Shown here: positions 5,473 through 58,735 of the stretch, in pieces
Layout of the letters: each line of letters begins with the position of its first letter
How positions within the stretch are numbered: position 1 is the stretch's first letter
Virus record (IMG/VR): IMGVR_UViG_3300028025_004184
Coordinates: 1 to 60,134 of that record
From: a virus
Reading direction: 5' to 3' (one strand)
DNA: 60,134 nucleotides
Made by a program: the position numbers and the translations under genes
The notes under the pieces: model-generated
Told to the model about the DNA's origin: nothing
What the model saw: the letters and a program-made list of their open reading frames with translations, nothing else
Database searches by the model: none

Positions 5473-5727
5473 ATGAAAAAGAAAAGATGGTCTAGCTTAA
5501 AAGAAAAGCTTTCTTGTAATAGTCCGAAGAGAACCTCTGGCGAAAATAAGTCTTGGGTTGTTAAGGGTTGTGAAGGCGGAGAAGAGAAGATCGTAAGATT
5601 TGGCGATCCTAACATGCCAGATAAGTCATATGTCGCAGAACGTAGAAAAAATTTTCGTGCTCGCCACAACTGTGACGAGAAAAAATCAAAACTTAAGGCT
5701 GGTTACTGGTCTTGTAAAAAGTGGTAA
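5473..5727 (+). CDS. Conserved phage head-region protein, 84 residues
   Basis: Basic protein with VVKGCEGGEEKIVRFGDPNM (about residues 29-48) and RRKNFRARHNCDEKKSKLKA, ending YWSCKKW. This pattern (VxKxGxKVIRFGD...RAKSFRARH...YWSxKxW) is a recurrent small protein of unknown function near portal and terminase genes in many phages. Family placement from memory. Confidence 0.75.
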   Translation: MKKKRWSSLKEKLSCNSPKRTSGENKSWVVKGCEGGEEKIVRFGDPNMPDKSYVAERRKNFRARHNCDEKKSKLKAGYWSCKKW

Positions 5728-5730
5728 TCA

Positions 5731-6540
5731 ATGTCTAGTGTAAGAAAAAAAGCTCTTGAAGATTTTGCTAAAGATGTGGAAAGAGGGATACCTCTAGCAG
5801 AGGATTACGTTGGAAAAACAGGCGATATTTATGATGACGCACTTCGAGCTAGAAATTTAGCGGAAGAATCATTGGCTCAAAAAGTATTGGATAATACTTC
5901 TATACCTATTCCGGATAGAAACGCTCCATTGTCTAAAAAAGAAGACTTCCTAAATCAAATGCTGCAAGGTCAGTACCCAGAATTAAAAAAGCAAGTGCAA
6001 TTTAAAGATATGCAGGGTAATCTTGGGTTATATGATAAAGGTAATATATATCTTAATAAAGAAATGGCAAAAAATAGAAGCCCTCAAAAATTAGTGGCCG
6101 ATACTTTCCATGAAGGCGGTCACGCATACGACGATGTTAAAAAACTTGTAACTCCTGATCAAGTTGAGGATTTTAATAAAGAACTTAGAAAATTAAAAGC
6201 TTCCGGCTTTGATTTAAAAAATGCTGATCCAGCGCAGATATATGAACTTATTGCCAATAAGCATCATGCTCAAGTACCAAATTTACGTGAAGGTACTTTT
6301 GGTCTAGGTGCTCTTAAGTCATATCTAAAGTCTGGCACATTTAAAGCTTTACCATTCGTTGGTCCAGCAATTGGTGCAGCTGCTGCCTTATCTTCTGGAG
6401 ACGCATCTGCTGCAGTTCCAATTCTTTCAGAGGCTGAGTCTTTAGGCCCTGAAAAAGGTTCTGAAGATTATGAGATTGAGAATCCACAAAGAAATCCAGA
6501 AGCTAGACGAGCTGCTTTAGAAAAGTTAATGAGGAAGTAG
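5731..6540 (+). CDS. Zinc-metallopeptidase-like protein with virion-type C-terminus
   Basis: 269 residues. Helical N-terminus. The central domain has a zinc-peptidase motif HEGGH at 127-131 (FHEGGHAYDD) and a following E172 in YELIANKHH that could be the third ligand. Residues 206-232 form a segment of small and hydrophobic residues (LPFVGPAIGAAAAL, then SGDASAAVPILSEAESLG), and the protein ends ARRAALEKLMRK. Both this segment and the tag recur in the next two genes. Stop and next start are 1 base apart. Probably carried in the virion and delivered with the DNA, by inference. Substrate unknown. Confidence 0.75.
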   Translation: MSSVRKKALEDFAKDVERGIPLAEDYVGKTGDIYDDALRARNLAEESLAQKVLDNTSIPIPDRNAPLSKKEDFLNQMLQGQYPELKKQVQFKDMQGNLGLYDKGNIYLNKEMAKNRSPQKLVADTFHEGGHAYDDVKKLVTPDQVEDFNKELRKLKASGFDLKNADPAQIYELIANKHHAQVPNLREGTFGLGALKSYLKSGTFKALPFVGPAIGAAAALSSGDASAAVPILSEAESLGPEKGSEDYEIENPQRNPEARRAALEKLMRK

Positions 6541-9792: not shown

Positions 9793-10137
9793 ATGAGCGT
9801 TTATCACGAGTTAGATAATTTAGAAATTGAAAGACTTAGAAAAAAAATTGTAGAGCTTGAGCTAGAGTTATCTAAAGCACATTCTCTTTTACAAGACAAT
9901 GACTTATTTGAAGAATTGCCAAGTACTTCTGACGAAGAGGTAATATGCGTTAACGAGATTCACAAGTTAAGAGTTGCATCAGACAACGGCATTCTTACGC
10001 TAGAAGATGTGAAAATTCTAGACCTTTTAGTTAAGAATTTATTAGCTATTAGAGGTAAGCCAGCTGAAGAAAAGAAAGACAGAAAAAAAGGTGCTAAGAG
10101 TGTAGCTGAGCTTCTTAGCATTGTTGATAAAAAATGA
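9793..10137 (+). CDS. Probable terminase small subunit
   Basis: 114 residues, helical. Coiled coil at the N-terminus (LERLRKKIVELELEL-type), then VNEIHKLRVASDNGILTLED and VKILDLLVKNLLAIR, a pattern seen in small phage terminase subunits, and a basic tail. Its stop overlaps the start of the large terminase gene by 4 bases. Assignment rests mainly on position and size. Confidence 0.55.
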   Translation: MSVYHELDNLEIERLRKKIVELELELSKAHSLLQDNDLFEELPSTSDEEVICVNEIHKLRVASDNGILTLEDVKILDLLVKNLLAIRGKPAEEKKDRKKGAKSVAELLSIVDKK

Positions 10138-11618
10138 GTGAAAAAAAAGAACGACCTATTTCACGAGAAGAAGCTATTACCCAATTATGGGAGCATGGCG
10201 TTCTAGATTATAAACTTACCGAGCCTCAGAAAATAATTAAGAAAGGTATTCTAGAAGATAAGAGTAAGATCAGTGTTGTCATGTGTGCTCGTCGTCTTGG
10301 TAAAAGTTATCTAGCACTTTCCATGGCGATAGAGGCTTGCCTAAAGACTCCAGATACTATTGTCAAATATGTATTCCCTAAACAAAAAGCTGCTAAGAAA
10401 AATATCCTTCCAATTATGAAAACTATTCTAGAGGACTGTCCAAAGTCTCTGCGTCCTGTGTTTATGGCTGCTGATCTTTTGTATAAATTTCCTAATGGTA
10501 GTGAGTTGCAAATGGCAGGTTCTGATAATGGCAACATAGAAAATATTCGAGGTGGTAACTCCAGTTTGAATATCGTAGATGAGGCTGGATTCTGCGATGA
10601 TTTAACATACGCTGTTAGATCAGTATTAGCTCCTACAACTAAGTTAACGCATGGTAGAACTATACTAGTATCTACTCCATCTCGTTACGAAGATCATGAA
10701 TTTGTTCAGGACTGGGCTTTAAAATATCAAGCAGAAGGCCGTATTAGAGTCTTTACTATTTTTGATAACCCACAGTTTACAGAAGCTATTATTAAAGACG
10801 CTCTAGATGATTATCCAGACGGTGAAAAAGATCCCGGATTTCGTCGTGAGTATATGTGTGAGATTGTACGCAGCGCAGATACATCTATTTTACCATCATT
10901 TAGCTCAGATGTTGAAAGAGTAATTGTAAGATCTGACTATCCTAGACCAGTATTCTATGATGCATACGTTTCTATGGATATCGGGGGATCAGATTTAACC
11001 GCTGTAGTTTTTGGGTATTACGACTATCTAAATGCCACTACAGTGATAGAAGATGAGCTTATTTTTGGAAAAGAAGTAAATACTAGGCTAGTTGCTGAAG
11101 CTATAAGAAAAAAAGAAGAAGAGCTTTGGAGAAATTCTATAGATGAGAGCATTATTCCTCCATACCTAAGAATTGCCGATAACAATAACTTAATTATGTT
11201 AACTGACTTACAAAGAGATCACGGTATAACATTCATCCCAACAAGAAAAGATAACAGAGAAGCGGCTATTAATGCACTAGACGTAGGATTATCCCAACAT
11301 AAGGTAATTATTCACCCAAAGTGTACACATACCTTGTATCACATGAAATTTGCAAGATGGGATAAGAATAGAAGAAATTTTCTTAAGCTCAAAGACTCTC
11401 CCTCTGGCCAAATTAAAGGCGGTCACGCAGATGCTCTTGCCGCAATCATATACTTACACAGAAATATTATTAAAAGTAAAAATCCTTATCCAGTTGGGTA
11501 TGGCGATATTTCTGGTTCTGGAGTTTTCGCATCTCAGCTAAAAAAAGATGAGCAAAAAGATAAGTCTATGAAATCTTGGCTTTCTGGTATGGTGTGGAAG
11601 AGGCCTAGCGGTAAGTAA
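10134..11618 (+). CDS. terL: Terminase large subunit
   Basis: 494 residues. The packaging ATPase has a Walker A-like ARRLGKS at 52-58 and Walker B LNIVDE at 145-150. A C-terminal RNase H-fold nuclease follows: SMDIGGSDLT near 285 with the first metal aspartate, and GGHADALAA near 435 with the last. It cuts concatemeric DNA and drives it through the portal. Full length for the family, no odd features. Confidence 0.95.
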   Translation: MSEKKERPISREEAITQLWEHGVLDYKLTEPQKIIKKGILEDKSKISVVMCARRLGKSYLALSMAIEACLKTPDTIVKYVFPKQKAAKKNILPIMKTILEDCPKSLRPVFMAADLLYKFPNGSELQMAGSDNGNIENIRGGNSSLNIVDEAGFCDDLTYAVRSVLAPTTKLTHGRTILVSTPSRYEDHEFVQDWALKYQAEGRIRVFTIFDNPQFTEAIIKDALDDYPDGEKDPGFRREYMCEIVRSADTSILPSFSSDVERVIVRSDYPRPVFYDAYVSMDIGGSDLTAVVFGYYDYLNATTVIEDELIFGKEVNTRLVAEAIRKKEEELWRNSIDESIIPPYLRIADNNNLIMLTDLQRDHGITFIPTRKDNREAAINALDVGLSQHKVIIHPKCTHTLYHMKFARWDKNRRNFLKLKDSPSGQIKGGHADALAAIIYLHRNIIKSKNPYPVGYGDISGSGVFASQLKKDEQKDKSMKSWLSGMVWKRPSGK

Positions 11619-11682: not shown

Positions 11683-13842
11683 ATGGCTTATTTTGATAAA
11701 GACGAGTATTTTGCAGCTAGTGACGATGAGACACTTGTCTTATATTTGCAAAAAAAATCAGACGCTTGGTTTAATTCCTTAATTTCTACAGACTACTTAG
11801 ATAAGATTAAAAGAAGCTGGCAAGCCTATTATGGATTTTATTATGAAGGTGGCCACGCCATTACTTTCGGTGGAGAAACTGGAGAGCTAGTAAATTTGCC
11901 AATGAACCATTACGGTAACATTGCAAGCCATATTCTTACTATGGTAACAGCTACTAGACCATCTTTTCAAGCAAGATCTGTTAACACTGATGTAAAATCT
12001 CAAATACAAACAAACTTAGCGAATGGTTTGTTAGAATATTACATGAGGGACAAAAGACTTGAGCAAGATCTTAAGAGAGCTGTTGAATATGCTATTATCA
12101 TGGGTTCCGGCTATATTAAAATGGAGTGGAATGCCACTACTGGTGAGATATATGACTTTATTGAGCCAGAATATAAGCCACTTGTTGATGAAAGTGGAGA
12201 AATTCAGTATGATGTTGACGGACAGCCTGTATATGAAACTGACGAAAATGGCGAGAAAGTTGAGCTTAGAGCAGGAGTTCCACTATATAGCGGTGACATC
12301 ATTTTTAATGTTATGTCGCCTTTTGATGTAGTATTTGATCCAACTAAGTCAGATAGTAACCATGACTGGCAGCTTTGCCGTAGTTTTAAAAATAAATATG
12401 ATCTAATCGCTAAATATCCTGAGTTTTCTGATAAAATCAAAGCTCTTAAAACAAAGTCTGATCTTAACACTACTCGCATAACTATGTCAGCTTACGATGA
12501 GACTACGGATGTTCCGGTATATGAATTTTTTCACAGACCAACAGAGTCTCTTCCTAAAGGGCGTTATGTTCTTTATCTAGACTCTGATATTGTACTAGAA
12601 GATACTGTGCTAGTTTATAAGCACCTGCCAATTTTTAGAATTGCTAGTAGAGATATCCTAGGTACTCCGTTCAGCTACACAGCAATGTTCGATTTACTTC
12701 CAATTCAAGACGCAGTTAACTCTCTGTACTCTACAATCATGACCAATCAGAATACTTTTGGTGTTCAGAATGTCTATGTAGAAAGAGGTTCTGATGTTCA
12801 AATGGAGCAAGTTGCTGATGGGTTAAATTTTATCCAAGGTAATCCGGGATTCCAACCTCCTAAAGCTTTAAACTTAACATCTACACCAGCTGAAATATTT
12901 AATTTTTTGAAAATGCTAGAGTCATCGATGGAGACTATATCAGGCGTAAATTCTGTCGCACGAGGTAATCCAGAGTCTCAGCTTAAATCGGGTAATGCCC
13001 TAGCATTAATTCAATCTCAAGCTCTGCAGTTTATTTCTGGGCTACAGCAATCGTATATCCAACTGATTGAAGATGTTGGAACTAATGTTGTGGAGCTTCT
13101 TAAAACTTTTGCTAAGACTCCTAGAGTTGCGGCAATTGCTGGTAAGTCTAATGTAACTTATATGAAAGAGTTTACATCAGATGATTTAAGTTCTATTACA
13201 AGAGTAATTGTAGACGCTGGTAACGCACTAGCTCAAACTACAGCTGGTCGTGTTGAAATGGCCAGTCAAATGATGCAAATGGGTATTATTACTACTCCTG
13301 AGCATTATATATCTGTTATTAATACAGGTAAATTAGAAACTATGACTGAAGGTCAAAACAAGGAGTTGTTGCTTGTTAGAGCTGAAAGAGAACGCCTTGT
13401 GGACGGTACAACTCCCGTGGTGGCTGTACTTACTGATTCTCATTCATTGCATATTAGAGAGCATAAGGCTGTTCTCGCAGATCCTGATTTACGTATGGAT
13501 GCGGAGCTTGTTCAACGAACGCTTGCGCATATTCAAGAGCACATTAACATCCTCTCTGATCCTAATGTTGCTAATATTCTTACTATGTTAGGAGAGCAGC
13601 CACTAGGCCCTCCTATGGGAACTCCTCCAGCTCCGGGCACAGTAGCTCCAGAGCAACCAATGCAACAAGGTCAAGAGCAGATACCTCCTTTATTAGAAAA
13701 TCCTCAAGCTCAGAGCGTTGCAGCAACTGCTAATCAAGGGCCTCTGCCATCTCCTGCGCAACCTGCAGGTGTTTCTCAAGGAGTACTGCCTCCTCAACCA
13801 ACAACGCCAGAACAGCTGGCTGCAAATAACTTAGGAGCATAA
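11683..13842 (+). CDS. Portal protein
   Basis: 719 residues, directly after the terminase. N-terminal features typical of podovirus portals: a W-rich start, MNHYGNIASHILTMVTATRPSF, and NVMSPFDVVFDPTKSD. The core holds DLLPIQDAVNSLYSTIMTNQ and SGVNSVARGNPESQLKSGNA (near 420), the conserved portal region. The C-terminal 100 residues are rich in P and Q, probably disordered. Forms the dodecameric DNA channel at the capsid vertex. Confidence 0.9.
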   Translation: MAYFDKDEYFAASDDETLVLYLQKKSDAWFNSLISTDYLDKIKRSWQAYYGFYYEGGHAITFGGETGELVNLPMNHYGNIASHILTMVTATRPSFQARSVNTDVKSQIQTNLANGLLEYYMRDKRLEQDLKRAVEYAIIMGSGYIKMEWNATTGEIYDFIEPEYKPLVDESGEIQYDVDGQPVYETDENGEKVELRAGVPLYSGDIIFNVMSPFDVVFDPTKSDSNHDWQLCRSFKNKYDLIAKYPEFSDKIKALKTKSDLNTTRITMSAYDETTDVPVYEFFHRPTESLPKGRYVLYLDSDIVLEDTVLVYKHLPIFRIASRDILGTPFSYTAMFDLLPIQDAVNSLYSTIMTNQNTFGVQNVYVERGSDVQMEQVADGLNFIQGNPGFQPPKALNLTSTPAEIFNFLKMLESSMETISGVNSVARGNPESQLKSGNALALIQSQALQFISGLQQSYIQLIEDVGTNVVELLKTFAKTPRVAAIAGKSNVTYMKEFTSDDLSSITRVIVDAGNALAQTTAGRVEMASQMMQMGIITTPEHYISVINTGKLETMTEGQNKELLLVRAERERLVDGTTPVVAVLTDSHSLHIREHKAVLADPDLRMDAELVQRTLAHIQEHINILSDPNVANILTMLGEQPLGPPMGTPPAPGTVAPEQPMQQGQEQIPPLLENPQAQSVAATANQGPLPSPAQPAGVSQGVLPPQPTTPEQLAANNLGA

Positions 13843-13843
13843 T

Positions 13844-13891
13844 ATGGCTAAATGTGGATCAAAAAAAGGTAAAGGAAAAAAAGGGAAGTAG
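13844..13891 (+). CDS. 15-residue basic micro-ORF
   Basis: MAKCGSKKGKGKKGK, too short for usual gene finders, but preceded by a good ribosome site (TTAGGAGCATA) and placed 1 base after the portal stop. Lysine/glycine rich. Could encode a DNA-binding or head peptide, or be the remnant of a longer gene cut by the HNH insertion. Confidence 0.45.
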   Translation: MAKCGSKKGKGKKGK

Positions 13892-13892
13892 C

Positions 13893-14399
13893 ATGCCAGC
13901 TAAAAGTGATTTTGGTCATAAAAATTGCTTAGAATGCGGTAATGTTATTATTCATAAGATAAAAAGAGATATAGAACGTAAAAAGTTTTGCTCACAGACC
14001 TGTATGGGAACTTATTATGGAAGAAAAAGACCATTAGATCACATGAATAAAATGTGGGTTTTAGGATGTAGTCCAGAAGCTAATGCTAAAAAGGGGCGTA
14101 AAGGAGAAAACCACCCTCAATATAAAAAGGATAGAAGCCAAGTTAAGAGTAAACGCTCTAGATATGAAAATACTGTTTGGACTAGAAGTGTTTTTGAAAA
14201 AGATGATTTTACTTGTCAGGATTGTGGACAACGTGGTGGAAAATTACAAGCCGACCACATAAAACCATACTGCATTTGCTCTGAGGATGAGAAATGGAAT
14301 TTAGAAAATGGAAGAACTTTATGTGTAGCATGTCATAAGAAAACAGATACTTATGGAATTAAAATGGTACATAAATTAAGAAAGGAAAAAGAACAATGA
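13893..14399 (+). CDS. HNH endonuclease (probable homing or selfish nuclease)
   Basis: 168 residues from ATG 13893 (ribosome site AAGGGAAG). Two zinc-type Cys pairs at the N-terminus (CLECGN, FCSQTC), then the HNH core: CQDCGQRGGKLQADHIKPY and LCVACHKKTD. Genes of this kind commonly sit as insertions between structural genes; here it lies between portal and a small head-region gene. Confidence 0.85.
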   Translation: MPAKSDFGHKNCLECGNVIIHKIKRDIERKKFCSQTCMGTYYGRKRPLDHMNKMWVLGCSPEANAKKGRKGENHPQYKKDRSQVKSKRSRYENTVWTRSVFEKDDFTCQDCGQRGGKLQADHIKPYCICSEDEKWNLENGRTLCVACHKKTDTYGIKMVHKLRKEKEQ

Positions 14400-16162: not shown

Positions 16163-17431
16163 ATGGCTATTGAATCAACAAACACCGTATCGACACTTGA
16201 CGGTCATTTTAAAGAAGTGTACGCATCAAAAATTAGAGATCTAGTACCTGAAGGTATGAAAATGCTTAAGCTTGCTGAGTTCTCAGCAGCTGAGAAACTT
16301 CTTGGTAATCTCTATCACCAACCAGTTGTTCTAGGTCTTGAGCACGGCTTCACATACGGCGGATCTGCTGGTGATGCTTTCATCCTTAACGCAGCTGTTG
16401 CTTCTCCTAACCGTGATGCACAAGTTAAAGGTCATGAGCTAGTTCTAGTATCTGCTATTTCAGTAGGTGCTGCTTCTCGTTCTATCTCTTCTAAAGCTGC
16501 TTTCGAGCAAGAAACTAAACGTCTTGTTCAGAACATGCTTAAGTCAACTCAAATCCGTATGGAAATCCAACTTATGTACGGTGGATCTGGTATTGCTAAA
16601 GTTGCAATTGTTGATACTGTTAATAACATTCTAACTATCTGTGGTTCTGAATGGGCTGCTGGTATTTGGTCTGGTTCTAAAAACGCTGCTCTTGAAATCC
16701 GCTCTCAATCAGGTGCTCTTCGTGGTACTTGTAACGTAGTTAAGCCAAACCTTAAAGATCAAACTATTGAAGTAGATCTTATTCCGAGTTTAGTTAGTGG
16801 TAATCCAGATTCTGAAAATTCTGCTGCTGATGTTATTTACTTCAAGGGCGCATATAATAAAGAATTTGCTGGTCTCCATAAAATCATTACAAATGATCAA
16901 ACTCTTTTCAATATCGACGCATCTGAGTTCGACCTTTTCAAAGGTAACGTAGTAACCGTCGGTACTTCTGAAGCTTCAAAAGCTTTCATTTCTTTCGATA
17001 AAGTTGAAGAAGCTGTAGCTCTTTGTATGGAAAAAGGTCTTACTGAAGAAGACGTTGTTTGTCTTGTAAATCCTAAGCACTGGAACAAGTTAATGACTGA
17101 GCAAGCTGCTAAGCGTCAGTATGATAGCTCTTACTCTTCTGAGAAAATGGAAAATGGAGCTAAGTCTCTAGTTTTCTACGGCCAGAATGGTAAAATCGAA
17201 ATTCATGCTTCACTTTTCGTAAAAGAAGGTTTTGCTTATATCTTCCCACCTGCAGAACTTGAGCGTATCGGCTCTTCTGATATCACTTTTGAGCGTCCGG
17301 GCTTTCCGGGTAAGTTCTTCCGTGAAATGGAATCTGCTAATGGTTACGAACTTCGTGCTTACTCTGACCAAGCTTTATTCACTTCTGCTCCGGGTAAAAT
17401 GGCTGTTCTTAAGTATATCAAAACAGCTTAA
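16163..17431 (+). CDS. Major capsid protein
   Basis: 422 residues. Follows the scaffold, has its own promoter, and is closed by the strongest terminator of the late region, as expected for the most abundant protein. Codon use is visibly biased (CGT, GCT, GTT endings) compared with neighbours. Sequence features such as QVKGHELVLVSAISVGAASR, SGALRGTCNVV and ERPGFPGKFFREME are consistent with an HK97-fold coat protein, though the fold cannot be proven by eye. Confidence 0.9.
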   Translation: MAIESTNTVSTLDGHFKEVYASKIRDLVPEGMKMLKLAEFSAAEKLLGNLYHQPVVLGLEHGFTYGGSAGDAFILNAAVASPNRDAQVKGHELVLVSAISVGAASRSISSKAAFEQETKRLVQNMLKSTQIRMEIQLMYGGSGIAKVAIVDTVNNILTICGSEWAAGIWSGSKNAALEIRSQSGALRGTCNVVKPNLKDQTIEVDLIPSLVSGNPDSENSAADVIYFKGAYNKEFAGLHKIITNDQTLFNIDASEFDLFKGNVVTVGTSEASKAFISFDKVEEAVALCMEKGLTEEDVVCLVNPKHWNKLMTEQAAKRQYDSSYSSEKMENGAKSLVFYGQNGKIEIHASLFVKEGFAYIFPPAELERIGSSDITFERPGFPGKFFREMESANGYELRAYSDQALFTSAPGKMAVLKYIKTA

Positions 17432-41059: not shown

Positions 41060-43441
41060 ATGGGAATGCGTTCAAATACAAATCAAGTTGGTCAAGGAAT
41101 GGGCACAGCCCTGACTGAGGAAGAAAAGAGAAAGCAGGAACAAGAACAAGCTCCACAGCCTCAAATCCAACAAACAACATCCGCAGCTCCTCGCATCGGA
41201 GAAGCTCAGGCAACAGCCATGAAAGCGGCTCCAAAAGAGCAGAAAGCTGGAACTGGTACTTTCGCTAATCTTAAAAGTTATATACAGGCTGCTCAGGGCG
41301 GAGGTCAGCAAAGAATTGCTCAGGCCGCAACGCAAAAAGTTCAGAATGTGGCAACTGGTGCTCAGAAGGGTATCCAGCAAGCTCAGAACGTATTTGGAAA
41401 AAAAGTAGAGGCAGGAAGTTTGTCTGGAATAGCTGCTCCGGGAGGAGTAGAGGCGGTTGGAAAAGAAGCCCAAGATATTATTAACGCAGCTAGAAAGGTT
41501 ACATATCAAGCTCCACAGCCAGCTACTGCACCTGCTACTCAGGCCACGGCTCCTGCCACAACAGCTGCAACAGCTCCTTCAGGTGAACAACCACAGCAGT
41601 CAGTTGTAGAACCCACAGTTGCTCAAGCTCAACAGTATTTTACTCCAGAACAGCAAAAGCGTTTTGCAGACATTATTAACGCACAATATGGTGGCCCAGC
41701 ATCTTTACAAGAAGCTGGACTTTATAGCGACATTGCTAAAAAAGCCAGAACAGCTCAAGAAGCAATTGGTCAAACTCAGACAGCCGCTGGAAGAGAGCAG
41801 TTGTTAAGAAATATCTTCAGCCAAGGTAGAGATTATACTAGAGGGCAATCTAAGCTAGATGCTTTACTTTTAAACACATCTCAGCAAGGTGTTGGAGAAT
41901 TACAGAGTCAGGCAAAGCAAGCAGGTAACATTCAGCAGCAAGCAGAACAAGCGCAGACACAATCTGCAAATGAAGCAGCTCAGAGAGCTAAAGAAATTTC
42001 AGATGTGCAACAAGCTTCTAGAAAAGCATTTTTAGAAGGTAGAACTGCTGAAGAAGCAGCTACTGAAACTAGAATGGACAAGCTTATAAAAGATCCAGCA
42101 TTAGATGCTTCTGGAAATAAAATACCTAAACTAGATATGGAAGGAAAGCCTATAGTAGATGCAGCTGGTAATCCAGTTTATCAAACTCAGTGGGACCAGC
42201 TTCCAGAATATTTTAGAGATATTATTAGAAATAAAGAAGCTAATAACAAAGCTATGCAAGCAGAGGCGTTTGCAAATTTAGACTCGTCAACTGGACTCAA
42301 TGAAGCAGGATATAAAAAAGCTCAGGCTAATCTCAAGGCTCAGCAAATAGCATTAGAAAATGCTAAAAATATTAATATGTATAGAGCTATAGGTGGATTG
42401 GCTCCTGATGAAAATGTGGATGAAAAAATTAAAATAGCTCAGCAAAATTTAGATGCTGCAAAATCTGACTTAGCTGGCTACTCAGATTATTTAAAACAGC
42501 GTAAAGATATCCAGAATATGAGCATGAAGCAGCTTAGATTAAGCCCTGAAGAAGCGGCTATTCTGGGGGTATCTTCTGGTGAAGGATTTTATAATGAACT
42601 GCCAACATTAATAAAAGACGTTAACGCAGAAAGATCAAGATTAATTACAAAAGATGAATTTGCTAGACAACAAGCATTAGCACAGTTAGCAGGTACAGAT
42701 ATTTCAAGAGCTTTACAAAAAGATTTAATGTACACAGACGCAGAAAAAGCAGGATCTCAGACATTAAGTAGTTCTTTAGATACTCAAGCAATAAGAAACG
42801 CTCTTAATGAAGCACAAACAAAATTTAAAGAAAGTGCAGAGGCCGCTAATTTAACTGGAAGTGGTAAAAAGAAAGTGTCCAGAGGTAACTGGGCGGGAAC
42901 AAGAACTAAAACATATACAGCTTCACAAGAAGGTAATGTTGCAGATATGTTGCGTCAAGCAGGATATGATGTTTCTGCAGAAAGTCCTGAAGCAGCTAAA
43001 TCATTGCTAACAGATAAAGAAGCTTTAGCTAATTATTTAGGAGCAACAGATACTTCTAGAGGAGATTCTGGGAGTATGTGGGCAGAAGGTGCTGCAAGAA
43101 CAGGAACAGGAGCTGCTATAGGAGCTGCTCTTGGATCATATGTTCCGGTTATAGGAACAGGTGTAGGAGCCGCTATAGGTAGTATGTATGGATCTATTCT
43201 TGGAGGAAATTCTACTCTTTCTAATGTAGTAGGAAATCTAGGTGGAGGTAGAATGAGTGATTCTGCCATGGCAGAAGTAGGTAAAGGTACTGCGAAAGAA
43301 TTAGCAATAAAAGATTTATATAATAAATATAATAAATATTTAGCTGGACAAGGATTTGAAAATAGAGCTAATATAGTAGACTCTGATATTACATCAGCTA
43401 GATCTGCTGCGCTTCAAGATTTATTACGTAGACAAGGCTAA
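41060..43441 (+). CDS. Internal virion protein (ejection protein), tagged C-terminus
   Basis: 793 residues, rich in Q and A, helical, with coiled coils. A glycine-zipper hydrophobic region (TGAAIGAALGSYVPVIGTG, then VGAAIGSMYGSILGG; about 680-715) could insert in membranes. The end RSAALQDLLRRQG resembles the tag of the proteins at 5731, 6542 and 7632. Position after the nozzle and composition fit a protein stored in the capsid and ejected with DNA. Confidence 0.75.
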   Translation: MGMRSNTNQVGQGMGTALTEEEKRKQEQEQAPQPQIQQTTSAAPRIGEAQATAMKAAPKEQKAGTGTFANLKSYIQAAQGGGQQRIAQAATQKVQNVATGAQKGIQQAQNVFGKKVEAGSLSGIAAPGGVEAVGKEAQDIINAARKVTYQAPQPATAPATQATAPATTAATAPSGEQPQQSVVEPTVAQAQQYFTPEQQKRFADIINAQYGGPASLQEAGLYSDIAKKARTAQEAIGQTQTAAGREQLLRNIFSQGRDYTRGQSKLDALLLNTSQQGVGELQSQAKQAGNIQQQAEQAQTQSANEAAQRAKEISDVQQASRKAFLEGRTAEEAATETRMDKLIKDPALDASGNKIPKLDMEGKPIVDAAGNPVYQTQWDQLPEYFRDIIRNKEANNKAMQAEAFANLDSSTGLNEAGYKKAQANLKAQQIALENAKNINMYRAIGGLAPDENVDEKIKIAQQNLDAAKSDLAGYSDYLKQRKDIQNMSMKQLRLSPEEAAILGVSSGEGFYNELPTLIKDVNAERSRLITKDEFARQQALAQLAGTDISRALQKDLMYTDAEKAGSQTLSSSLDTQAIRNALNEAQTKFKESAEAANLTGSGKKKVSRGNWAGTRTKTYTASQEGNVADMLRQAGYDVSAESPEAAKSLLTDKEALANYLGATDTSRGDSGSMWAEGAARTGTGAAIGAALGSYVPVIGTGVGAAIGSMYGSILGGNSTLSNVVGNLGGGRMSDSAMAEVGKGTAKELAIKDLYNKYNKYLAGQGFENRANIVDSDITSARSAALQDLLRRQG

Positions 43442-43443
43442 GA

Positions 43444-43800
43444 ATGTCAAGTTTATACGCTCAATTTGTTAAAGAAACTGTTAATTGGGACACTTTAGAA
43501 GACGAAGACAGCTTTACAACTTATGAGATTCAGTCTGTTGGTCCAGTTAAGTGTTTAAAAGTTATAGAGATGTATGTTGCTCCATATGCTAGAGGTAAAG
43601 ATAAGTGGAGAGATTTAATGATTAAAATTGAAGAAATTGCCAGACAAGAAAAATGTAAGACAATTTCTGCACAGATAAGTAAAAGTACTTCAGAATTTAC
43701 ACAACAAAGAACTGCGCACTTATGCAGGTTGTTTGGAATGCAACATTCGTATGAAGATGTATATCAGATAGTTTATAATAGAGGTGTCAAATATGAGTAA
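43444..43800 (+). CDS. Internal virion protein with GNAT-like fold (T7 gp13-like)
   Basis: 118 residues. IEMYVAPYARGKDKWRDLMI-type segment (the A-x-x-x-R/G-x-G-like acetyl-CoA loop is poorly kept), then IEEIARQEKCKTISAQI and HLCRLFGMQHSYEDVYQIVY as in GNAT C-terminal strands. T7 gp13, a small protein in the same genome place, is of the same type. Catalysis doubtful. Confidence 0.6.
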   Translation: MSSLYAQFVKETVNWDTLEDEDSFTTYEIQSVGPVKCLKVIEMYVAPYARGKDKWRDLMIKIEEIARQEKCKTISAQISKSTSEFTQQRTAHLCRLFGMQHSYEDVYQIVYNRGVKYE

Positions 43801-44653
43801 GAACGCTGGAAAAAGTGAAATGTCAGATGCTACAGCATTGATGCGAGATAACATAGCTCGTCTTGAGGCAATCGGCATTCCTACCATAGAAGCTCAAAAA
43901 ATTGCACTACAAAGTCCAGAGTTAGTAGGATTATTAGAAGCTGAGCAGTTGGGACCATCTGCCATGCAGGGAGTTCAAGAAGATCCTAGACTTAAAGCAG
44001 CTCAAATGGCAGTTTTAGAGGAATATGCTAATACTGGAAATAGAGGTGGATTAGATGCTGCATCAAGACTTAATATAGAACAAGGATTAGGAAGAGTAGC
44101 AGGATCTGAACAGGCTAGGCTTCAAACTATCGAAGAAGATCCTACTTTAGGTCAAGGTCAGAAATTAGCCCTTAAAGAGAAGGCAATACAAAATGCTGGT
44201 CAGGCTGGAAGAGATATTGCATTACAAACAGCTGCTCAAGCTCAACAAGCTAAAATGGCAGCATTAGGACAACAAGGAAGTATGGCCTCTCAAATGTCTC
44301 AACAACAACTTGCATTAGCTGGACAAAAGGCTTCTGCAGCAGACGTTATAAATCAGTTTAATACACAAAACAGACAAAATACAAATCAATTTAATGCTCA
44401 AAATAGAATTGCAACACAAAGAGGAACAGAGGCTACAAAAAATCAACAACAACTTTATAATACAGGACTTATTCAGCAGCAATTTCAAAATGAAATGGCA
44501 AGAGCTACGGGAATCACCGGTCAACAATCTAATCTTGCTAATTTATATGGACAACAAGCAGCCTCAGCTCAACAAGCTCAACAAGCTCAGACAGGAGCAC
44601 TACTTAACTTAGGTGGTACACTTGGAGCAGCAGCTTTAACAAAAGGGAAGTAG
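43784..44653 (+). CDS. Internal virion protein (T7 gp14-like), 289 residues
   Basis: Helical, Q/A-rich (MASQMSQQQLALAGQKA, NQFNAQNRIATQRG) with a short hydrophobic end (LLNLGGTLGAAALTKGK). Composition, size and place match channel-forming ejection proteins such as T7 gp14. Overlaps the previous gene by 17 bases. Confidence 0.7.
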   Translation: MSNMSKNAGKSEMSDATALMRDNIARLEAIGIPTIEAQKIALQSPELVGLLEAEQLGPSAMQGVQEDPRLKAAQMAVLEEYANTGNRGGLDAASRLNIEQGLGRVAGSEQARLQTIEEDPTLGQGQKLALKEKAIQNAGQAGRDIALQTAAQAQQAKMAALGQQGSMASQMSQQQLALAGQKASAADVINQFNTQNRQNTNQFNAQNRIATQRGTEATKNQQQLYNTGLIQQQFQNEMARATGITGQQSNLANLYGQQAASAQQAQQAQTGALLNLGGTLGAAALTKGK

Positions 44654-44654
44654 T

Positions 44655-45926
44655 ATGGCAATGTTTCCATTTATAAAAACAGAAGAAGATGATAACTTAT
44701 TGCAGGAAATTCCTCAGTCTCCAAGCTATGAAGATTCTATTAGAGGAATAGCTGGATACCAACCAGAAGAAGCTCCAATGGCTTCTACTTCTCCAGACAT
44801 TACAACTGCACCAACTGCACCAACTGCTCCAACTAAACTAGCTGATCTGTTGCCAGCAAAGGCTGAAACTGATACGTCAAAAACTCCAGAAGCTCCTATG
44901 TCTGCTCAAGATAAGCTATTGAAAGAGTACTTACAGTTATTTGGTAAAGATACAACAGATGAGTTGAAGTCTGCTAGAGATCGTGATAGGATGCTTAAGA
45001 TAGGCGGATCTATCGGAGATGCACTAGCTACTTACATTAATGCACAGGGACAAATGAATGCTAAGGTTCCGGGAGTACAGGTTCAGCAAGGTGCTGGATT
45101 AGGGAAAGTGGCTGATATGTTTGCCACAGCTCCGGAGATTCAAAGCGATATTGCTACTAGAAGAGAAGCTTTGATGAATCAATATAAGCAATTAGCTATG
45201 CAACAAATGTCTGAAGCAAAAAGAGAATCAGCTGCTAAAATTGCAGAAAATAGAAATAAAACAATACTAGAAGCAGCTCAAATTGGTGCAAGTGGAAGAA
45301 GTGATTTAGCTGAAATAGGCAGAGAAAATAAAAAAAATGAATTAATTGATAAAAATACTATAAAATTAAAGTCAGATCTTACTGAATCTCAAGCGGTAGC
45401 TACAACTATCTCTAATGTAGAGAAGTTACTAGGGTTTAATTTAGATGATGTAGATTTAGAGACAGGTACAGTTAAAGGAAAACCTGTAGATATTCCGGGA
45501 GTTAATATTCCCGGTAAAGGCAGGACTACTTTTTACTCTTCAGCAGCTAGAGAACTTGATGATACTATGAGCAACCTTTTTAACGTAGAATTAAAAAATA
45601 GATCTGGTGTTTCAGTTACTCCTCCAGAATTACAAGCACTAAAAAAAGAATTTAGTGAGGGTAAATTTAATACCGAGGAAGAAAAATTAAAAGCATTAAA
45701 AAGATTTAAACAAGCTCTTAAGACAGCCTTCAGAAATATAGAAGCTGGATATTCAAAAGAAGTGATTTCTGAATATCAAGATAGAGGGGGATTTACATCT
45801 GATAGACTTGGTAAAACTTCTGAAAAAACAACTAAAAAGGCTGCTGCAGGAGATATAGTTACTGTAAAAGGTAAAAAATATAAAGTTGCAGAAGATGGCG
45901 ATTCTTTAATTCCAGTAGGTCAATAA
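44655..45926 (+). CDS. Internal virion protein, 423 residues
   Basis: Proline/threonine-rich linker near residues 45-75 (TAPTAPTAPT), then helices with QYKQLAMQQMSEAKRESAAK, and a KOW-like end (AGDIVTVKGKKYKVAEDGD) preceded by NIEAGYSKEVISEYQDRGG. Overlaps the next start by 1 base. Part of the ejection cluster by position and composition. Confidence 0.65.
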   Translation: MAMFPFIKTEEDDNLLQEIPQSPSYEDSIRGIAGYQPEEAPMASTSPDITTAPTAPTAPTKLADLLPAKAETDTSKTPEAPMSAQDKLLKEYLQLFGKDTTDELKSARDRDRMLKIGGSIGDALATYINAQGQMNAKVPGVQVQQGAGLGKVADMFATAPEIQSDIATRREALMNQYKQLAMQQMSEAKRESAAKIAENRNKTILEAAQIGASGRSDLAEIGRENKKNELIDKNTIKLKSDLTESQAVATTISNVEKLLGFNLDDVDLETGTVKGKPVDIPGVNIPGKGRTTFYSSAARELDDTMSNLFNVELKNRSGVSVTPPELQALKKEFSEGKFNTEEEKLKALKRFKQALKTAFRNIEAGYSKEVISEYQDRGGFTSDRLGKTSEKTTKKAAAGDIVTVKGKKYKVAEDGDSLIPVGQ

Positions 45927-48049
45927 TGAAATTATCCGAATTAAATGAAAACGAATATGAAATAGAAACTCCAAAGAATGAAGAAGCTCCTCTTTCTTTG
46001 TCATCGTTGTCTGATAGTGATTATGAGATAGAAAGTCCAACTGAATCAAAAGAAACTTTACCGGAAGATGAAGTAACAGCACCTGCAATTGGGTATTTAG
46101 CTGGAAAAGCAACTCAGAGAGGTATTGAAAAAACTGGAGAATACGCCGAAAAAGGCTTAGAAAAAATAGCTCAAATGGGAGGAACTTCTCCAGAGCAACT
46201 TAAAGTTATTAAAGAAAATTTTCCAGCATTTAAAAATACAGATCCAATACAAGAGATGAATGATCTTTTAGCTCAAGCTAGAGGAACAAATACTAATATT
46301 AATGAAATGTACCAACAAGCTGAAAAGTTATTAGCTGATAAAAAAATAACTCCAGATCAATATAAAAATATAGTTCAAAATGCCATACTAGAAAGAGATG
46401 AATATGGTCAGCGAACATTTGCTAAACCTATATCTCAAAGTGAAATAAATAAAGCAGATACTAAAGTTTTAAATGATTTAAGAAAAGAAGCTGTTATAAA
46501 AGAACAAAAAATGTTAGATGAATTTGCTAAATTAAAAGCAGATGAAGCTATAAAAACAGCAGATTTTAATTATAAAATAACAAATGCTACAGATCAGCAA
46601 TTGCCAAGAAATATTGAATCTGAAATAAGAAAAAATACTATAGATAAAATTAAAACTAATCCACAAGAATTTGGTTTTAAAGGACTAGAGTCTGAGATTT
46701 TAGGAGATTATGATACTAGAATAAGTAAAGAAATTGCAGCACTACAGACTCCTTTAGCAAAAGAATTTCCATCATTACAAGGTAAATCTATAGTTCCAGC
46801 GGAAGAACGTGCTTTTCAAAAAATACTAAATATGCCTAGTAAGGCAGATATTTCTGGTAATAGATTACAAGAAATGTTAAGAGAATTTAGAGATCGTGGA
46901 TTTACAGAGCAAGGTCAGTTAAGTGAAAAGCCAGCGGTAGCAACAGCAACTCAAGTAAGAAAAAAAATATCAGAACTTTCTCCTGAAGCTGGAAGATTGA
47001 TGGAAGCTGAAAATGTTGAATTATCTAAACTAGAAGCTTTAGAAAATGCAGGATATATAAAAAGAGTTGGCGAAGGTACTAAAACAACAATTGATATGCC
47101 AGACTCTCAAATAAATAATATGGTTAAAGATCTAGCTACTTCTTATGATAAAGCTAGTCCAACAAATGTTATAGAAAATATAGAAGTTTTAAAAAAGTAT
47201 TTACCAGAAAATAAATTTAAGAAACTCCAAATAGCTGCATTAAAATTAGCAGAAAAGAAGGATGGAGGAATTGGTTATGTTAACGCTAATATAATCAATC
47301 AAATACTACAAAGTATAACTACTAGAAGCGTATCTAGAGCAGTTGCTACTTTACCCGAAGCTGTTAGTAATATGTTACCTAAAACTACAATGGTAGCAAA
47401 AGTTATAGGAAAAGGTGCGCTTAAAGCACTTCCAGCGGTAGGAGCCGGGATTGGTGGAATTGCCGCACAAGCTGCTGAAGAAGCTCTATCTCCAGAGACA
47501 TCAGGAGCACTACCTACAGAAGTAGAAACAGAAGATAGAAGAAATGCTCCAATCCCAGTAAATCCACAAGAAGCAGATAGAATTAAATCTACCTATTGGT
47601 TTGAAAAAGGATATACCCCAGAAGAACAAGTTCAAAAAGCAAGACTTGCCAGCTTTAGACAAGAGCTTCCAGATCAAGGTAGAATGGATGAAATGCCATC
47701 TCCTTACGCAAAGCCTGAAGTTAAGCAATATAAAGAACAAGTATTAGCTGCTAAAAAAGCAGGAGCATTGGCTCCAACTTATGTAGAAGCCCCTCTTAAG
47801 CAAGTTTTAAAAGCTGATAGTCCAGCTGAGATCTCATCTATTGCTCAGTCTATGCAAACTATGCCAGACAAAGCTTCGCAAGAGTATAGTCGTGTATTAA
47901 GCCAAATTGTTGATGCCCCAGCTTCTCAGAAGGAAGCTGTACTATTTGGATTAAATCAGCAACCAGCTTTCAGAGAGTTAGTGCGTAAACTTAAAGATCA
48001 GCAAAAGACAGAAGAAGAAACACCCTTAATGTTAAAAGGCCCTGCTTAA
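45926..48049 (+). CDS. Large internal virion protein, 707 residues
   Basis: Mostly helical and charged. A hydrophobic glycine-rich stretch KGALKALPAVGAGIGGIAAQ (about 492-511) resembles the segment KALPFVGPAIGAAAAL of the protein at 5731. The C-terminal 180 residues have WFEKGYTPEEQVQKARLASF. No lysozyme or transglycosylase motif seen. Last gene of the ejection cluster. Confidence 0.7.
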   Translation: MKLSELNENEYEIETPKNEEAPLSLSSLSDSDYEIESPTESKETLPEDEVTAPAIGYLAGKATQRGIEKTGEYAEKGLEKIAQMGGTSPEQLKVIKENFPAFKNTDPIQEMNDLLAQARGTNTNINEMYQQAEKLLADKKITPDQYKNIVQNAILERDEYGQRTFAKPISQSEINKADTKVLNDLRKEAVIKEQKMLDEFAKLKADEAIKTADFNYKITNATDQQLPRNIESEIRKNTIDKIKTNPQEFGFKGLESEILGDYDTRISKEIAALQTPLAKEFPSLQGKSIVPAEERAFQKILNMPSKADISGNRLQEMLREFRDRGFTEQGQLSEKPAVATATQVRKKISELSPEAGRLMEAENVELSKLEALENAGYIKRVGEGTKTTIDMPDSQINNMVKDLATSYDKASPTNVIENIEVLKKYLPENKFKKLQIAALKLAEKKDGGIGYVNANIINQILQSITTRSVSRAVATLPEAVSNMLPKTTMVAKVIGKGALKALPAVGAGIGGIAAQAAEEALSPETSGALPTEVETEDRRNAPIPVNPQEADRIKSTYWFEKGYTPEEQVQKARLASFRQELPDQGRMDEMPSPYAKPEVKQYKEQVLAAKKAGALAPTYVEAPLKQVLKADSPAEISSIAQSMQTMPDKASQEYSRVLSQIVDAPASQKEAVLFGLNQQPAFRELVRKLKDQQKTEEETPLMLKGPA
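48015..48036 (+). promoter_or_regulatory. Possible late promoter element inside the preceding gene
   Basis: AAACACCCTTAATGTTAAAAGG with the CACCCTTA core at 48018-48025, 34 bases before the start at 48059. Match downstream of the core is poor and an 8-base core is expected about once or twice by chance in the window. Confidence 0.4.
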
Positions 48050-48058
48050 AGGAATGTT

Positions 48059-48334
48059 ATGCAAGAGCAATTAGACAAAATTGAAGAAAAAGTTGACAGA
48101 ATTGAGTCTAAGATATCTAACATAGATGTTACTCTTGCTAAGCAAGAAGTAAACTTAGCTGAACATATGAGAAGAACTGAGTTGAATGAAATAGCGGTTG
48201 AAAAAATAAGAGAAACATTAGTTCCCATAAACAAACACGTAAATATGTTAGAAGGTGTTTTTAAATTTTTTGGACTAATATCTATTTTATTAGGAATTGT
48301 AGTTTCTTTATTAAAACTAATTAGTTTGATGTAA
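48059..48334 (+). CDS. Membrane-anchored coiled-coil protein (XhlA/holin-like), 91 residues
   Basis: N-terminal coiled coil (LDKIEEKVDRIESKISNIDV), segment TLAKQEVNLAEHMRRTEL as in haemolysin XhlA-type phage proteins, and one C-terminal transmembrane helix (FGLISILLGIVVSLLKLI). Last rightward gene. Could help lysis or anchor a virion component; ribosome site AAAGGAATG-like just upstream. Confidence 0.7.
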   Translation: MQEQLDKIEEKVDRIESKISNIDVTLAKQEVNLAEHMRRTELNEIAVEKIRETLVPINKHVNMLEGVFKFFGLISILLGIVVSLLKLISLM

Positions 48335-48956
48335 AATATTCAAAAATTAAGTTTCTAGTATGTGTAGCTTTTTTTCTACAAACTTTAATAATAGTAGTAG
48401 CATGAAGCCCTAATTCTTGTGCCGCAATAGACGCTGATTGATAAATCACTCCAGTATTAATACAAATAACAGGCTTGCATCCATGACCTCTGAGTTTTCT
48501 AGTTTCAGATATCTTTTTCTTAGTTCCCTCTGACCTTAGTTTTCCATACATTGGGTTATTAATACCTTTTACCTTTTCTGATGTTTTTCTTTTTGATTCT
48601 TCACTTCTCTTCTTGCCATACATCGGATTTCCTTTGCCAGAATATAAAACAGATCTATATTTTATAGTAGACTCTTGAGCTTTAAATCCCCACGCACCCT
48701 CTCCACCATTAGTAAGATTTGCTTCACAATAACCTAAAGATTTATACAGCTTTATTAATTCAACTTCTTTTTTATAAGCTTCTTTTTGAGTTAAATTTTT
48801 TAAAATTATTTGAACTTTATAACCAATTTTAGAAATGCTTTTCCAGTATTTGTTCCTACTCTTTTTCTGAAAAGCTCTATCCCCACTACCTTTCCCTATA
48901 TAAAATGGAGTATTATTATCAATTCTTATGTGTCTATAAATATAATACTTATTCAT
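48321..48956 (-). CDS. GIY-YIG homing endonuclease
   Basis: 211 residues. GIY-YIG core: YYIYRH (4-9) and FYIGKGSGDR (18-27), later K/E residues of the domain. Two NUMOD3-like DNA-binding repeats (NPMYGKKRSEESKRKTSEK and NPMYGKLRSEGTKKKISET) and a NUMOD1-like helix-turn-helix end (SASIAAQELGLHATTIIKV). Full layout of a free-standing selfish nuclease, inserted at the point where the two transcription units meet; its 3' end overlaps the convergent gene by 14 bases. Confidence 0.9.
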   Translation of the reverse strand: MNKYYIYRHIRIDNNTPFYIGKGSGDRAFQKKSRNKYWKSISKIGYKVQIILKNLTQKEAYKKEVELIKLYKSLGYCEANLTNGGEGAWGFKAQESTIKYRSVLYSGKGNPMYGKKRSEESKRKTSEKVKGINNPMYGKLRSEGTKKKISETRKLRGHGCKPVICINTGVIYQSASIAAQELGLHATTIIKVCRKKATHTRNLIFEYFTSN

Positions 48957-58111: not shown

Positions 58112-58292
58112 AATCTTCTTTCTTAACTCCACACTTAGCACAATCATACACTGAACTTGTTATAAGCACAATCTTTTTCCAGTCATGGCTGCATATTTTT
58201 TGATTCCAAGGTAGGTCTACTGTTTCCTTGCAATTTCTAGGAACAGGAGGAGGTAAGCAATCTTCGCCTTCATCGTCAGGAATCCAGAACAT
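58089..58292 (-). CDS. Small zinc-site protein, 67 residues
   Basis: MFWIPDDEGEDCLPPPVPRN, then KICSHDWKKIVLI and YDCAKCGVKKEDYERW. C/H/CxxC arrangement like a small zinc ribbon known in phage proteins. Unknown. Confidence 0.75.
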   Translation of the reverse strand: MFWIPDDEGEDCLPPPVPRNCKETVDLPWNQKICSHDWKKIVLITSSVYDCAKCGVKKEDYERWKKE

Positions 58293-58735
58293 TAAAACTC
58301 CAGAGATAAGCCTAAGCCAACTCTTTTAGAGGTATCAACTATTCCAACGGCTGATACGTTACCTATTAGTGGGATAGAAGCTATAACTCCTATATCTGCA
58401 CTTCTTTGTATATTATGAGCGTCTTTTATAGCCAAAACTCCAAGTGATATTGTAGACCCCTTGGATATTATCTTAGAAGTGCTACTACTAATAGAGGATG
58501 ATGTGTTAGATGAGGTATCTGATGTTTCTTCAGTAGTAGTGTCTGTTGTAGAAGTACCATCTGGCTTAATGACTGTAGTGGTACGAGTTTTTTTCTTTTC
58601 TTTCTTAGAAGAGGATGCTTGTTTAACTTCCACATACTTAGTAACTGTAACTATTTCTTGTTTAGGAGATAGCACATATCTTCCAATCAGTATGCAAACT
58701 GTAGCAATTATAAAATGAACTTTATACTTCATCAT
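58292..58735 (-). CDS. Membrane-anchored serine/threonine-rich protein, 147 residues
   Basis: N-terminal transmembrane helix (VHFIIATVCILIGRYVL), charged linker, long S/T-rich low-complexity segment (SDTSSNTSSSISSSTSK), then a beta-rich C-terminus ending GLGLSLEF. The layout (anchor, flexible periplasmic spacer, beta end with terminal F) suits a spanin-like or envelope-spanning protein, unproven. Confidence 0.7.
   Translation of the reverse strand: MMKYKVHFIIATVCILIGRYVLSPKQEIVTVTKYVEVKQASSSKKEKKKTRTTTVIKPDGTSTTDTTTEETSDTSSNTSSSISSSTSKIISKGSTISLGVLAIKDAHNIQRSADIGVIASIPLIGNVSAVGIVDTSKRVGLGLSLEF

Follow-up and report, generated by a model that had tools for sequence, protein, structure and literature searches.

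The capsid-targeting sequence of phage T4 is N-terminal and is cleaved by the prohead protease. The T4 internal proteins IPI-IPIII are described as diverse and small, some of them with counter-defence functions, and as having in common only a short terminal sequence for head targeting, which directs proteins into the scaffolding core (PMC3012670). Phage P1 packages DarB and the Dar antirestriction proteins in its head for delivery to the host, and a short terminal segment is enough to load a reporter (PMC9024508). The DarB signal is N-terminal and, in the same report, BLAST found no consensus across the Dar proteins (PMC9024508).

Two other systems are relevant. The polyvalent proteins of Iyer et al. 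(2017) contain 2 to 15 domains per chain and are presumed to be injected (PMC5512222). The T7 ejection protein gp16 is reported to have putative membrane helices, and positive residues at its C-terminus are required for infectivity (PMC8954989). A shared C-terminal virion tag was not found described in the open-access library that was searched.

The locus analyzed here resembles the T4 system in that different domains stand on shared terminal tails. Unlike the T4 signal, the element is C-terminal and also occurs in ejection-cluster proteins, and no site of cleavage was recognized in the tails. Unlike the P1 Dar proteins in that report, different proteins here clearly have tails in common. As in the polyvalent proteins, metallopeptidase-like, kinase-like and GNAT-like domains are present (PMC5512222), and the genes are near the virion genes; unlike them, the genes here mostly seem to encode a single domain, which stands on a tail of a common kind. 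As with the T7-like ejection proteins gp14-gp16, the cluster closes the structural block, and proteins at the position of the 707-aa gene match PHROG 342 or carry endolysin/M23 domains (below). The sharing of tails with effectors is a difference, as it is not described for T7 in the available part of the source. The closest precedents, the T4 capsid-targeting sequence and P1 DarB, use other signals, and sharing with ejection proteins is not described for them in the available parts of the reports. The exchangeable tails on predicted effectors and ejection proteins suggest a loading-and-ejection tag that can be tested.

Gene order and relatives

The window was the whole IMG/VR record IMGVR_UViG_3300028025_004184, 60,134 bases long with 36.6% GC. 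The main ORFs were on the + strand across 5213-48334. Small and medium ORFs were followed by the packaging, capsid and tail genes, and the cluster at 41060-48049 came last (Table 1). The gene functions given here are predictions from sequence alone.

Relatives were reached via the terminase, which gave 28 loci with related terminases. The homologues were all metagenomic. Hints of the host were one contig in a MAG named Bacteroidales and a 30% match of the terminase to a Silvanigrella phage, neither of which decides the host.

Two ORFs resembled endonucleases by eye. The one at 13854-14399 (+), between the portal and scaffold genes, was HNH-endonuclease-like, and an 83% identical copy was present in L002. 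The one at 48321-48956 (-), directly past the ejection cluster, was GIY-YIG homing endonuclease-like.

Table 1. Features of the window discussed in the text
Feature	Position	Strand	Remarks
Effector-like ORF, 269 aa	5731..6540	+	zincin-type HEGGH (residues 127-131); residues 199-269 form a full type-1 tail
Type-1 tail of ORF 5731	6343..6537	+	KALPFVGPAIGAAAAL...DYEIENPQRNPEARRAALEKLMRK
Effector-like ORF, 362 aa	6542..7630	+	kinase-like motifs GSGAFKNAY and DVHAGNVGID; type-3 tail, residues 268-362
Effector-like ORF, 260 aa	7632..8414	+	PHROG 2563 match, E=1.2e-10; tail end ARRAALEKLGK
Adjoining ORF, 313 aa	8434..9375	+	HEYAH motif; without tail
Terminase large subunit	10134..11618	+	PHROG 2, E=3e-29; anchor of the relative search
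Portal gene	at 11683
Major head protein gene	at 16163
793-aa ejection-cluster protein	41060..43441	+	C-terminal half of tail
Glycine-zipper-like stretch of 793-aa protein	43103..43207	+	residues 682-716; weak Pfam Gly-zipper match, E=0.07
C-terminal motif of 793-aa protein	43400..43438	+	RSAALQDLLRRQG, residues 781-793
Three ORFs, ejection cluster by position	43444..45926	+	GNAT-like 118 aa (PHROG acetyltransferase, E=2e-5), 289 aa and 423 aa
707-aa ejection-cluster protein	45926..48049	+
Hydrophobic segment (KALPAVGAGIGGIAA) and charged linker of 707-aa protein	47393..47788	+	residues 490-621; homologous to G021 GNAT-like tail

Effector-like ORFs before the terminase

In the family of ORF 5731, HE..H.YD was invariant in six sequences, and thus the HExxH conservation of a zincin metallopeptidase was present. 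Searches of Pfam, PHROG and PDB with this ORF gave no match, and it is therefore called peptidase-like at most. In ORF 6542, the glycine loop and DxHxxN were conserved in one homologue; the only PHROG kinase match had E=0.14, and the Pfam search gave no match. Profiles of the 5731, 6542 and 793 families were also searched against PDB, with no credible hit.

A GNAT-like ORF of 255 aa with a type-1 tail in L007 matched Pfam Acetyltransf_1 at E=0.0014, with 19.3 bits versus a cut-off of 20.7. A 589-aa ORF in L012 contained the peptidase-like domain and an additional part of about 200 residues. The effector ORFs of the window were small and single-domain in look, and no Pfam domain was recognized in them. 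All these enzyme names are at the motif level, and the activities are putative.

Some minor features were noted in this block. A small basic protein of 84 aa (5473-5727, +) stood first in the effector block of nearly all close relatives. A short VPYQ repeat was present at the N-end of ORF 8434. In ORF 5731 and its peptidase-like relatives, residues 1-20 (VRKKALEDFAKDVE, PRRKALEEYAKNVE) resembled their own C-end motif RRAALEKLLRK.

Tail architecture and exchange

The tail had two parts. Part (a) was a Gly/Ala segment of marginal hydrophobicity, joined to a linker that was acidic or charged; in the tail of ORF 5731-6540, KALPFVGPAIGAAAAL is at residues 205-220 (nt 6343-6390). Part (b) was a basic C-end, R-x-x-A-L-x-x-[LM]-[LM]-x-[RK], which is probably amphipathic and may form a helix. 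Three types of tail were distinguished, and 'the tail' refers to this set of related types.

In the loci with 81-93% identical terminases, the ORFs between the small basic protein and the terminase varied from phage to phage. Peptidase-like, kinase-like and GNAT-like proteins of related phages sat on exchangeable tails before the terminase. In the window, the peptidase-like and kinase-like ORFs had only the last 80 residues or so in common (BLAST E=6e-11). Between L003 and L006, the peptidase-like ORFs were 91% identical over residues 1-232 and then had different tails. L002 and L003 carried one tail on two different domains.

Pairs of tails gave dS mostly of 0.7-2 and dN of 0.13-0.71. The synonymous divergence was high, often near saturation, and the nonsynonymous divergence was lower. 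This suggested that the tails are maintained by purifying selection and were not recently copied. It also argues against the tails being recombination relics, i.e. gene fragments that homologous exchange has spread among gene ends and that have no function in common. Frequent swapping is in line with relics, and recombination at conserved 3' ends can be self-maintaining. Given the divergence values, together with the recurrence of tails in distant branches at different gene positions, we consider relics very unlikely.

Tail segments in the ejection cluster

The 793- and 707-aa proteins of the window gave no good match to described families, including ejection proteins, in Pfam and PHROG. A direct search of viral contigs found no relatives of the 707-aa protein, and searches of 50,697 phage records with the 707, 793 and tail sequences found no relative. 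An ejection role of the two proteins is predicted, because their cluster ends the structural block and because of matches of relatives at the 707 position. The G021 protein at this position matched PHROG 342 (E=5e-5), a family named 'internal virion protein with endolysin domain'; for G014 and G012, the matches were to endolysin or M23 peptidase. In two distant relatives (L145:11445-14348 and L142:7137-9971), such endolysin or M23 matches at the 707 position were C-terminal.

The earlier note had claimed that the protein at 41060 ends in RSAALQDLLRRQG after a glycine-zipper region, and that the 707-aa protein contains KALPAVGAGIGGIAA, close to KALPFVGPAIGAAAAL of the 5731 protein. All were found in place, with KALPAVGAGIGGIAA at residues 500-514 (nt 47423-47467). 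AR..AL..LL.R, or a very close sequence, was present at the end of eight of the ten 793 proteins, including that of the window. The G010 homologue was without the motif, and the ends of the L163 and L164 proteins were diverged or extended. In the 707 protein, GALKALP..GA..G..AAQAAEEA was kept in the close homologues.

A tail profile was built from effector-like ORFs, taking their tails in the window and in its relatives, and was compared with the two families by hhalign. It scored 22.7 (E 0.015) against the 707 family, versus 16.8 for the best of 100 column shuffles, which preserve composition. The score against the 793 family was 21.1 (E 0.029), versus 18.5 for the best of 100 shuffles. The alignments fell exactly on the KALPAVGAGIGGIAA and RSAALQDLLRRQG segments. 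The hhalign 'probability' was low (1.7-2.9%), presumably owing to the short stretches.

Against single ORFs of the window of at least 80 aa, the 707 protein ranked fourth (20.3) and the 793 protein fifth (19.0), behind three tail-bearing ORFs. An unrelated hydrophobic ORF at 58292-58735 (-) scored 18.4, which sets the false-positive level for the hydrophobic half. This half was rejected as sole evidence, being too weak at that level. When the tail HMM was run on the whole sibling genomes, it matched nothing outside the pre-terminase block except 707 homologues in two phages, at E 0.04-0.05.

The basic half was tested with a matrix trained on the effector C-ends alone. The C-end of the window 793 protein scored 21.6 bits, versus an internal maximum of 16.7 in 195,547 windows. 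Four 793 homologues scored 15.2-18.9 bits, and among 1,902 ORFs the 793 C-ends ranked directly behind the effectors; one unrelated 84-aa ORF end also scored 16.7. A loose C-end pattern was observed 36 times in the last 20 residues versus 4.9 expected, a count inflated by overlapping matches and homologues, with a pattern picked after the tails were seen.

These results bear on the possibility that the resemblance is due to chance or to Ala/Gly composition only. The modest score of the hydrophobic half alone, with ORF 58292 close to it, is in its favour. The column shuffles, the C-end matrix statistics and the composition-adjusted and masked BLAST all went beyond composition, and for the family as a whole this possibility was already refuted by the G021 proteins described below. 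We regard it as highly improbable. The profile comparison upheld the matches given in the note, with both families above all 100 shuffles. Its claim that the effector tail recurs in the ejection proteins stood in part: the hydrophobic half is in the 707 protein and the basic C-end in the 793 protein, and neither has the whole tail.

Tails in distant relatives

The terminase of G021 was 36% identical to that of the window. Among distant relatives, the 707 family profile picked up a G021 protein of 358 aa (L147:8636-9712, E=5.8e-24). Its N-terminal part was GNAT-like by eye only, and a Pfam search gave no GNAT match. Its last 110 residues or so were homologous to residues 490-621 of the window 707 protein (BLAST E=1.9e-11). 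The match persisted at 1.2e-11 with low-complexity masking, and that to the 707 homologues of G001 and G008 reached E of about 5e-24, with 58% over 83 residues. Scanning with the 707 tail segment yielded more 707 homologues, but the G021 effector remained the only one of its kind.

The ejection cluster of G021 itself included a 161-aa protein with a type-1 tail at its end (DDAIIEDPTQPLEIRKAAMMRM), which matched the 5731 tail at E=0.005. The structural/ejection region of G010 had two small proteins, one with the end KARRQALMDMINKR and the other with the end NIRRNALKRMSERQ; the latter contained GALPLVGAAMAFGGAREAGAS as well. Pre-terminase ORFs of L089 and L098 carried SIIENPDASPEERKAAMEAM. This indicated that tail, effector-like ORFs and ejection cluster are associated repeatedly, in branches of the clade that are separate. 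The two G021 proteins also strengthened the link between the pre-terminase block and the ejection cluster that the note had drawn.

A possible membrane segment or a proposed address

The main rival to a delivery tag is that the shared element is a segment for membrane insertion or translocation that acts after delivery, with head loading depending on something else. The ejection proteins would build their conduit with the segment, and the effectors would use it as an anchor at the inner membrane of the host or to pass through that membrane. The hydrophobic segments are rich in Gly and Ala and have a 19-residue hydropathy of 1.0-1.6, the 793 protein has a glycine-zipper stretch, and the putative membrane helices of T7 gp16 are reported to insert after ejection (PMC8954989). 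On the other hand, this hydropathy is marginal for a membrane helix. The C-end was also found without the hydrophobic segment in proteins of L002 (136 aa), L007 (129 aa) and G010 (131 aa), and the G021-tail homology was strongest in the charged linker following the hydrophobic segment, not in the hydrophobic part. The linker homology and these proteins favour more than a membrane anchor. The sequence does not separate the two explanations, because T7 gp16 has putative membrane helices as well as C-terminal positive residues required for infectivity (PMC8954989). We consider the membrane segment rather unlikely.

The tail-bearing ORFs are on the + strand among the structural genes and are probably made late. 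This would also suit proteins that act late in the producing cell, for example in lysis or superinfection exclusion, with the tail targeting assembly sites or the membrane and no delivery. The tails are, however, common to ejection-cluster proteins, and the kinds of domains recall the injected polyvalent proteins (PMC5512222). Action in the producing cell appears quite unlikely.

We consider it moderately probable that the tail works as a C-terminal module for delivery that can be exchanged between proteins. It would load effectors into the head for ejection with the core proteins, in the manner of the T4 capsid-targeting sequence. The effector-like proteins, with peptidase-like, kinase-like, GNAT-like and unknown domains, are encoded where the + strand structural block begins. 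Part (b) would dock them on a procapsid receptor (portal, inner core or scaffold) that would also recruit the 793-aa protein. Part (a) would let them travel with the membrane-active ejection proteins through the conduit. As infection starts, the delivered enzymes would then work inside the host.

Delivery is favoured by the profiles that beat their shuffles, the C-end matrix and the 793 C-ends, and by the way in which phages with closely similar terminases have exchanged domains and tails. It is also favoured by the G021 tails and the two G010 proteins, by the purifying selection on the tails, and by the internal-virion and endolysin matches of the 707-position relatives. The T4 internal proteins and P1 DarB, which are reported to load via short terminal signals (PMC3012670, PMC9024508), are a further reason. 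Against delivery, no ejection-cluster protein of the window has the whole tail, and ORF 8434 is tailless in the same block. The G010, L163 and L164 exceptions among the 793 proteins and the near-equal score of ORF 58292 for the hydrophobic half also count against it. So does the scaffold, which was rejected as the source of the tag: its C-end (KQRDFFRQLGRK) was conserved in close relatives but had a different pattern.

For this clade of uncultured phages, in which the longest records are about 80 kb, we tentatively propose that swappable C-terminal tags, belonging to families that also include segments of the phages' own ejection proteins, may serve as a general loading-and-ejection address. 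Such phages would have a polymorphic platform of virion-delivered effectors. We consider this a serious possibility, short of probable.

Virion-borne phage proteins are seldom predictable from sequence. If ejection proteins and exchangeable effectors do have a tag in common, the cargo would be predictable in this clade, and a quickly renewed set of enzymes for early host takeover or anti-defence would be revealed. Any new enzyme fused upstream of the tag would become an injected effector, and the tag would provide a defined address for trying to load proteins into phage heads.

Repeats and other N-terminal features

The proteins at the 707 position started with two or three short acidic/aromatic tandem repeats (45926-46060 in the window). 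The repeats differed in nearly every phage: YEIETP/YEIESP in the window, and SDFDPEDI, LPAFEDTE and PPTEKELEAFE in others. N-terminal repeats were also present in the 707-position proteins of L046, L048, L142, L145, L146, L147, L148 and L155. The window repeat resembled DYEIENP of the 5731 tail, with DYEIE[NS]P common to both. We leave this likeness as a side remark, because the N-termini of the sibling 707 proteins carry other repeats.

In a distant relative, the pre-terminase ORF L133:3154-4272 started with MSILPLLASLLGTDEAEA, a sequence resembling the tail's hydrophobic half but located at the N-terminus.
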